A stretch of DNA of 44,994 nucleotides, from assembly GCA_023544565.1 (NCBI GenBank), contig JAMJFS010000014.1, positions 1 to 44,994 on the forward strand. Reading direction: 5' to 3'. Position 1 is the stretch's first letter; each line of letters starts with the position of its first letter. Under the pieces are notes generated by a model. The model had not been told where the DNA came from. It searched no databases and saw nothing but the letters and a program-made list of their open reading frames with translations. This stretch comes from Methanosarcinaceae archaeon (GTDB taxonomy: Archaea > Halobacteriota > Methanosarcinia > Methanosarcinales > Methanosarcinaceae). Both the position numbers and the translations under genes were made by a program. This document shows, one piece after another, positions 6,053 to 9,539 of this stretch.

Positions 6053-6120
6053 AATAGCCATATGCCAAAACGGATGTGCAAAAACAGAAGTCACGGACGG
6101 ATTTTTAGGTATTCTCGATA

Positions 6121-6132
6121 CCTATATAATAG
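6121..6132 (+). promoter_or_regulatory. TATA box for the tRNA-Ser gene
   Basis: CCTATATAATAG lies about 40-50 bases before the first tRNA base, which would give a 5' leader of roughly 20 bases to be trimmed by RNase P. It is the only TATA-like element between endoQ and the tRNA. The T-rich run at 6288-6300 just after the tRNA may end transcription. Confidence 0.5.
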
Positions 6133-6170: not shown

Positions 6171-6286
6171 GCCGAGGTGGCAGAGCGGACTAATCCAATG
6201 GTGACCTCACCTTGGAGTCTATACGCGGCAGGCTCGAGACTTGTTTTCCCTGACGGGATGCTTGGGTTCGAATCCCAACCTCGGCG
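6171..6286 (+). tRNA. tRNA-Ser(CGA) with a ~30-nt insertion (probable intron) in the D-arm
   Basis: Acceptor arms GCCGAGG (6171-6177) and CCTCGGC (6279-6285) pair perfectly, with discriminator G at 6286. The T-arm is TTGGG/TTCGAAT/CCCAA (6262-6278). The long variable arm has a TCCC-TGAC-GGGA stem (6247-6258), marking a type II tRNA. The anticodon arm is GCAGG-CTCGAGA-CTTGT (6228-6244), anticodon CGA at 6235-6237, loop intact. From acceptor to anticodon stem there are about 30 bases too many; removing 6195-6224 gives an 86-nt tRNA with a standard serine D-arm (TGGCAGAGCGGACTAAT joined to GCG). The extra piece can fold into a bulge-helix-bulge-like form: GACT (6188-6191) pairs with AGTC (6216-6219), CCAA (6195-6198) with TTGG (6212-6215), and bulges AAT and TATA flank the helix. 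Exact splice points are not settled; strict BHB cutting would remove about 28 bases. Confidence 0.85.
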
Positions 6287-6321
6287 CTTTTCATTTTTTT
6301 AAATAAAATTGACCAAATATC

Positions 6322-8129: not shown

Positions 8130-9539
8130 CTATGTCCGTTCCTTCATCCCATCTCCATTTCCTCGCACCAGCGAGGCCACAACACCTATCACACAGACTC
8201 CTGCAGCAACCATGAATGCATCATGATATCCACTCAAAAATGCAGGAATGTATGATATTCCCAGTGCCTCGTTCAATTGAAGTCCTCTTGTGAATACGGC
8301 GCTGGATATGGCTATACCGGTAACCATGCCAAGATTGCGCATTATTGCAAGCAGGCTGCCGGCAATCCCCAGACGGTTCTTTGGAACAGAACCCATGACG
8401 ATGCTGTTGTTTGGTGACTGGAACATTCCCATGCCCAAGCCCACCATGCCCAGCCTTATGATTATGTCGAGGAAAGTGGATTCCTGGCCAAGATTGCCAA
8501 GGAGGTAGAGGGCGAGACATGTAATGGCCATTCCTATGCTGCTCAGCATGAAAGAACTTGTTTTATCTGATAAAACGCCGCTAACGGGTGCTACCACTGC
8601 CATGACAAGCGGAATTGCTATGAGAGCCATTCCAACATGGCTTGTGGTGTAGCCCAGAACCTCTTCCATGTAAAATGGCATCATAAGAATTACCACAAAC
8701 ATAGCCACAAAGCTCAAAAAACTGCTTGCATTTGATGCCGAGAATGGCCGGTTCTTGAACAGGGAAAGTTCCACCATCGGCTGGCTGGCTTTGTGCTCTA
8801 TGTTCAGGAATATTATTAGAGAGATTACAAACACGCTGAACAATCCAATTATCAGGGGCGAATTCCAGCCCATCCCCTGTCCCTGTGTGATTCCAAGCAT
8901 CAATGATGTCACACTTATGAACATGAAAAATGCACCCGGAATATCGAATTTCTGTCCTTTGTGAACTTCTTCGGATTCGAGTATTTTCAGGGAATATGCG
9001 GCTGCGAATATGCCGATCGGGATATTGATGTAGAATATGCTCTGCCATCCGATAAGATAGATAAGGAATCCTCCAAGGGCAGGACCTGCCATGGAACCTA
9101 CACTGACCACGGTGCCTATAATTCCCATTGCTTTACCACGCTCCGTATGCGGGAATGCGAATGTAACGATTGCAGTACTTGTAGCCATTATCATGGCAGC
9201 ACCGAAACCCTGCACAACCCTGAAGGCTATTAACTGACCTATTGATGTCGAAAGACTGCAAAGACCTGACCCGAAACTGAAAACTAATAGACCTGCTGCA
9301 AATACTTTTTTTCGGCCATACATATCTGAAAGCCGGCCAAGTGTCAGGAGTAATACTGTGATGGTAAGCAGGTAGGATAGTATGACCCATGATGCAGTGG
9401 GGATGTCGGTGTCGAATAATCTGGTTAGTGTTGGCAATGCAATGTTCACGATGCTGCCATCAAGGGTTGCCATGAATATGCCGATCGACACTGCAAGCAT
9501 GGCTTTCCATTTGTATTTTGGGTCAGGGTTGTTTTCCAT
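8130..9539 (-). CDS. MFS multidrug efflux transporter, DHA2 (EmrB/QacA) family, 14 TM
   Basis: This drug:proton antiporter of the 14-helix DHA2 group has the diagnostic motif 'LDGSIVNIALPTL' in helix 1 (residues about 25-37) and motif A 'LGRLSDMYGRKKVF' in the loop after helix 2. Motif C in helix 5 reads 'GSMAGPALGGFLIYLIGW'. I start at the ATG at 9539 ('MENNPDPKYKWK'), giving 469 residues; an upstream extension of 29 residues is basic and atypical for the family. It is divergent from the DUF2178/XRE operon, with 195 bases between them that could hold shared control sites. Substrate cannot be told. Confidence 0.85.
   Translation of the reverse strand: MENNPDPKYKWKAMLAVSIGIFMATLDGSIVNIALPTLTRLFDTDIPTASWVILSYLLTITVLLLTLGRLSDMYGRKKVFAAGLLVFSFGSGLCSLSTSIGQLIAFRVVQGFGAAMIMATSTAIVTFAFPHTERGKAMGIIGTVVSVGSMAGPALGGFLIYLIGWQSIFYINIPIGIFAAAYSLKILESEEVHKGQKFDIPGAFFMFISVTSLMLGITQGQGMGWNSPLIIGLFSVFVISLIIFLNIEHKASQPMVELSLFKNRPFSASNASSFLSFVAMFVVILMMPFYMEEVLGYTTSHVGMALIAIPLVMAVVAPVSGVLSDKTSSFMLSSIGMAITCLALYLLGNLGQESTFLDIIIRLGMVGLGMGMFQSPNNSIVMGSVPKNRLGIAGSLLAIMRNLGMVTGIAISSAVFTRGLQLNEALGISYIPAFLSGYHDAFMVAAGVCVIGVVASLVRGNGDGMKERT

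Follow-up and report, generated by a model that had tools for sequence, protein, structure and literature searches.

A serine tRNA gene with an interrupted D-arm

The window analysed here, 44,994 nt in length, comprises the entire contig C5 of an assembly of 1.78 Mb and 92.5% completeness. It carries a tRNA-Ser(CGA) gene of 116 nt (6171-6286), whose D-arm contains 30 extra bases (Table 1). Judged by the neighbouring aIF2-alpha protein, the closest named contigs are Methanosarcinaceae MAGs, one of them labelled ANME3. Every stem of the tRNA is intact: the acceptor stem pairs GCCGAGG with CCUCGGC and is followed by a discriminator G and, after the gene, by a T-run, the anticodon arm reads GCAGG-CUCGAGA-CUUGU with the anticodon CGA, the variable arm is formed by UCCC/GGGA, and the T-arm reads UUGGG-UUCGAAU-CCCAA. 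The tRNA gene lies downstream of genes for aIF2-alpha, a PAC2-family, and a PHP-family protein (TIGR00162, TIGR00375), and of 32 named intron-bearing contigs, 31 place it no more than 200 nt from the PHP gene (a 33rd, L132, lies outside this count). The contig L066 has a close aIF2-alpha and also the PHP gene, but no tRNA-Ser follows the latter (region 8935-9500), and the sequence downstream is different.

Table 1. Features of the tRNA-Ser(CGA) gene and its predicted bulge-helix-bulge element (window coordinates).
Feature	Position	Strand	Basis
Candidate promoter, A/T-rich, TATA-box-like, upstream	6119-6132	+	read from sequence only
5′ exon, ending at tRNA position 21	6171-6192	+	identical in intronless f3/f5 orthologues
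Central helix, 5′ strand GGAC, exonic	6187-6190	+	GGAC in 79/79 distinct sequences
5′ bulge UAA, cut UA^A	6191-6193	+	first base T/A/C without compensation at 6216
Intron, 30 nt, tRNA position 21/22	6193-6222 (equally 6194-6223)	+	lacking in intronless orthologues; cleavage follows base 2 of each bulge
Inner hairpin UCCAA/UUGGA, bulged U6199, GGUG/CACC, loop ACCU	6194-6216	+	RNAfold centroid; at least 3 inner pairs in 78/79
Central helix, 3′ strand GUCU, intronic	6217-6220	+	GTCT 39, GTCC 28, GTTC 12 of 79, all pairing with GGAC
3′ bulge AUA, cut AU^A	6221-6223	+	3-nt bulge with final A in 79/79
3′ exon: anticodon arm CGA, variable arm, T arm, acceptor, discriminator G	6223-6286	+	matches orthologues
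Candidate terminator, T-rich, just after gene	6288-6302	+	read from sequence only

Without introns, ARAGORN returned no match in the window. Rfam gave none there at the gathering score, its best weak match being tRNA-Sec (20.2 bits), and RF00005 reached 14 bits over part of the gene only. With introns allowed, ARAGORN called 6171-6287 a tRNA-Asn(GTT) with a 37-nt intron, a call that is a likely source of database errors. The gene scores 89.8 bits under a serine-tRNA covariance model that we built from spliced sequences, the window sequence among them. The original prediction, whose assignment as tRNA-Ser(CGA) with intact stems is borne out by the sequence, had also considered a pseudogene standing beside a second intact copy. 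A tRNA scan of the 92.5%-complete assembly found Ser(GGA), Ser(UGA), and Ser(GCU) as well, and no second Ser(CGA).

Intronless orthologues define the intron boundaries

In the families f3 and f5 (f1-f8 and f33 are family labels taken from the search tool), there is no insert and most genes read GGCAGAGCGGACTAACGCGGCAGG through the D-arm; one f5 genus has a diverged tRNA-Ser gene, which is likewise uninterrupted. Intronless orthologues measure 85-86 nt compared to 116 nt for the window gene. Those of f3/f5 correspond to 6171-6192 joined exactly to 6223-6286, through the D-arm and the anticodon loop, which defines the intron as 6193-6222; the alternative bounds 6194-6223 lead to the same product, both intron ends carrying A. 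Thus, the insertion of about 30 bases in the D-arm that had been predicted is confirmed as a 30-nt element absent from intronless orthologues, while its borders move from the proposed 6195-6224. If each bulge is cut behind its second base, the result is exactly the sequence of the intronless orthologues, whereas strict cleavage had been expected to miss the consensus.

Of 34 distinct spliced sequences, 33 come out at exactly 86 nt under the same rule, with introns of 17-38 nt, the 34th being a degenerate duplicate that carries a second insert. The predicted mature D-stem of the window tRNA contains an A12-C23 mismatch (6182 and 6224), which is shared by several intronless orthologues. Among 79 distinct intron-bearing sequences (see below), position 23 is C in 65, including the window, and T in 14. 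The consensus D-arm with A12-U23 that had been expected after intron removal is therefore natural in some lineages, but it is not that of the window gene. In the close relatives L062, L061, and L034, the gene differs from that of the window only at the bulged base and loop of the intron hairpin (6199-6207).

A conserved bulge-helix-bulge core surrounds the intron

Intron-bearing 5′ parts were captured by a pattern that demanded GCAGAG-GG upstream of the site and CTCGAGA downstream, but no helices. It gave 79 distinct sequences from 128 places, which belong to 84 genome handles and 33 named contigs, some of them representing the same genome; G063 contains the intron but lies outside this set owing to masked bases. 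In all 79 sequences, the central helix of the bulge-helix-bulge (BHB) element is complete (4/4 pairs), and position 6220 is always a pyrimidine (40 C, 39 T), as expected for pairing with G6187. The inner helix reaches three pairs or more in 78 sequences, compared to a mean of 68.8 and a maximum of 71 when 3′ partners are exchanged; the exception, L355, lacks the second inner pair. Intron length ranges from 17 to 47 nt. Position 6191 varies between T, A, and C while 6216 stays A (56 T-A, 15 A-A, 7 C-A, 1 A-G), which identifies 6191 as a bulge base, and the pair U6194-A6216 is T-A in 78 sequences and C-G in one. Between lineages, the first inner pair occurs as T-A or C-G, the second as C-G, T-G, or T-A, and the third as C-G, T-A, G-C, or T-G. 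As most helix positions hardly vary, we regard the covariation support for the predicted fold as modest.

When the window intron was shuffled, the helix set was reached in 79 of 100,000 trials, and shuffling the introns of all 79 distinct sequences produced the central helix plus three inner pairs in 19 of 39,500 trials. The 42-nt element has a folding z of -3.25. Its minimum-energy fold in RNAfold is devoid of the central helix, and the centroid contains three of its four pairs; the reason is that C6224 competes with U6220 for pairing with G6187. Among relatives, the minimum-energy fold lacks the central helix in L069 and L146 and displays it as proposed in L072 and L349; the piece of L305 that was folded with these did not contain the element. 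On the exon side, the outer helix is weak, with about two pairs (G6185-C6226 and C6186-G6225, with C6224 looped out), while the inner helix is strong.

The BHB-like fold of the original prediction is conserved in relatives, but its register is not borne out: GACU (6188-6191) was paired with AGUC (6216-6219), which left AAU and UAUA as bulges, so that an intron of 6195-6224 would be released by relaxed cleavage and a Watson-Crick A12-U23 D-stem would result. All four pairs of that helix can form in 56 of the 79 distinct sequences, a 3-bp outer helix GCG/CGC remains that folding programs favour, and U23 does occur in other lineages. However, 22 of the 79 sequences have A or C at 6191 while 6216 remains A, and the intronless orthologues read GGACUAACGCGG, which the 6195-6224 cut does not produce. 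We therefore consider this register very unlikely.

Two further explanations concern the insert itself. It might persist through maturation and enlarge the D-arm, yet its length varies over the range given above while BHB core and cut bases stay fixed, and it is cleanly absent in sister families, which makes retention highly improbable. A tRNA pseudogene or an assembly artefact with a random insertion would fit a gene that stems from one MAG contig and is missed by standard scanners. This is hardly conceivable for an insert that recurs at the same place in the 84 genome handles and 33 named contigs, single-contig genomes among them, with nearly unchanged exons, intact stems, and no replacement copy found in the 92.5%-complete assembly.

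A single-chain endonuclease and RtcB as a probable splicing pathway

The genome encodes one EndA, a single chain of 354 aa with two tRNA_int_endo domains, which matches the tRNA splicing endonuclease equivalog NF006795 over its full length (595 bits). Its best PDB match is 1r0v (residues 30-338), which we take to be the alpha'2 endonuclease of Archaeoglobus fulgidus. In the C-terminal half, Tyr lies near residue 290, His near 301, and Lys near 332, a spacing that presumably corresponds to that of the catalytic triad. The original prediction had looked to a broad-specificity endonuclease of the alpha-beta or epsilon type, but neither a beta subunit nor an epsilon-type EndA was found in the 92.5%-complete assembly, where both domain matches fall into the one 354-aa frame. 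RtcB is encoded as well (616.6 bits). Since the genome combines a single-chain alpha'2-type endonuclease with RtcB, a broad-specificity enzyme is unnecessary. An EndA-type match is present in 94 of 99 relatives. Of 17 further genomes, 16 gave two matches to the tRNA_int_endo domain and G335 a single one.

Taken together, the gene is very probably a tRNA-Ser(CGA) with a 30-nt BHB intron at position 21/22 that is removed by EndA and RtcB and has been passed on at the same site through much of the phylum. The pre-tRNA would fold into the BHB core, the alpha'2-type EndA would cleave both 3-nt bulges behind their second base, at 6192/6193 and 6222/6223, and RtcB would join the exons to an 86-nt tRNA-Ser. 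For the window gene, we infer that its RNA is transcribed, cut, and joined in this way.

Distribution and history of the intron

Similarity searches matched the Ser(CGA) gene, interrupted or not, in 72 of 99 relatives and, across the class, in 175 of 237 genomes. The intron is present in most Methanosarcinaceae examined (f1), in the sister families f2 and f4, and in the Methanotrichaceae-like genomes of f7, all in the same class; outside the class, it occurs in f8 and f33. We take f1 to include Methanococcoides burtonii and Methanohalophilus mahii, and f7 presumably comprises Methanothrix thermophila, harundinacea, and soehngenii. Uninterrupted orthologues are found in f3, f5, and several families outside the class. 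In f6 (L411 and L412), the D-arm of Ser(CGA) is uninterrupted and a short insert lies next to the anticodon. On an aEF-2 tree of 40 genomes, the intron label requires six changes compared to a mean of 13.7 for shuffled labels, and only two of the changes are forced by well-supported branches. A single origin followed by several losses is plausible, and we infer that absence of the intron in relatives reflects loss.

In the genera g2, g7, g9, g10, and g11 (Methanosarcina and sisters), Ser(CGA) is intronless and has a different body (L282, L309-L313, L315, L316, L318, L322, and L326, as well as the Methanosarcina-like contigs L088, L091, L093, L094, and L100). A blast search with the window gene gave no match in Methanosarcina-type genomes; the covariance model then found the different Ser(CGA) there. 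It lies downstream of the same PHP-family gene in all five Methanosarcina-like contigs examined and is consequently the positional counterpart of the window gene; we rejected the reading as an unrelated gene elsewhere on the same grounds. This suggests rewriting or replacement in place. The Methanosarcina-type gene is identical to Ser(UGA) in 58 of 87, to Ser(GGA) in 59 of 93, and to the spliced window gene in 57 of 89 aligned columns, by which no closest source can be distinguished. On the aEF-2 tree, the five sampled rewritten genomes form one clade within the intron bearers (support 100/100).

Further inserts in Ser(CGA) and other tRNAs

In 21 f7 genomes (L289-L305 and L352-L355), the T-loop of Ser(CGA) holds another intron-like insert, about 30-33 nt long, detected by pattern in 20 of them and by eye, over part of the gene, in the 21st (L355). 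Folded by eye, it displays a helix UUCA/UGAA or UUCA/GGAA, with bulges AAA or similar and AAU. Read as an intron at position 59/60 (our own numbering), it would leave UUCAAAU after strict cutting. Methanothrix thermophila, which we take to be one of these f7 genomes, has the same D-arm intron together with the T-loop insert. In f8 (L349 and L357), the D-arm intron is 17 nt long with a GUAA loop, and a long extra stretch in the variable arm may be another intron. Partial tRNA duplicates occur in f2 on the minus strand of L224 (about 2814-2690 and 691-508) and L223 (about 1233-1100); in their anticodon arm, these contain a further insert of about 62 nt, and they look degenerate, some with duplicated upstream flank. 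The window genome also has insert-bearing genes for tRNA-Tyr, tRNA-Ala(GGC), and elongator tRNA-Met, the last being our reading of a gene that ARAGORN calls Ser(AGA).

Relation to known introns and significance

With canonical archaeal BHB introns at 37/38, the element shares the 4-bp helix, the two 3-nt bulges, and the presence of EndA and RtcB; it differs in its D-arm location at 21/22 and in the weak exon-side helix, which results from the lack of a flanking anticodon stem at this site. A D-arm position links it to the noncanonical introns of Crenarchaeota/Thermoproteales and Thaumarchaeota (PMC3218864, PMC4090602, PMC8450103), whose reviewed sites include 20/21 and 22/23. In contrast to these, the window case combines a strict-looking core with an alpha'2 instead of an alpha2beta2 enzyme, and the intron resides at one position in one tRNA across many relatives.

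According to Chan 2011 (PMC3218864), noncanonical introns are almost exclusively crenarchaeal, and three thermophilic euryarchaeal methanogens are mentioned without names, which probably include Methanothrix thermophila. These three are likewise euryarchaeal, but the relatives of the window gene include mesophilic and cold-adapted genera. A 2014 review (PMC4090602) holds that in euryarchaea whose endonuclease is alpha4 or alpha2, one intron occurs, at the canonical site. PMC4033280 states that alpha4/alpha2 enzymes cut canonical BHB motifs only and names Methanopyrus kandleri and Methanothermobacter thermautotrophicus as two euryarchaea with multiple-intron tRNAs. The predicted noncanonical intron in a euryarchaeal host holds, in archaea for which introns of this type are reported to be rare. 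For tRNAscan-SE 2.0, PMC8450103 gives 673 noncanonical introns in 217 archaeal genomes, with Euryarchaeota included in the training. No mention of a Ser(CGA) 21/22 intron was found in the parts of the literature that we searched; these genes may already be listed in databases. The splicing mechanism is known, and the present instance of it is, by sequence comparison, widely conserved.

A more far-reaching history is possible, which we put forward tentatively. The 21/22 intron would descend from one ancestral insertion, kept in place across a large part of a euryarchaeal phylum and always served by a supposedly strict alpha'2 enzyme. Some families would have excised it cleanly. In the Methanosarcina clade, it would have disappeared when the whole tRNA was rewritten at its locus, either through gene conversion or because another serine tRNA took its place, and Methanotrichaceae would have gained a second intron at 59/60. 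If true, such prolonged maintenance in a single tRNA would hint at a selected role.

An intron at a noncanonical position with a strict-looking core is widespread in euryarchaea with alpha'2-type endonucleases, many of them culturable, which renders position and motif strictness experimentally separable. Moreover, the intron-bearing, intronless, and rewritten orthologues constitute a natural series for tRNA intron loss.
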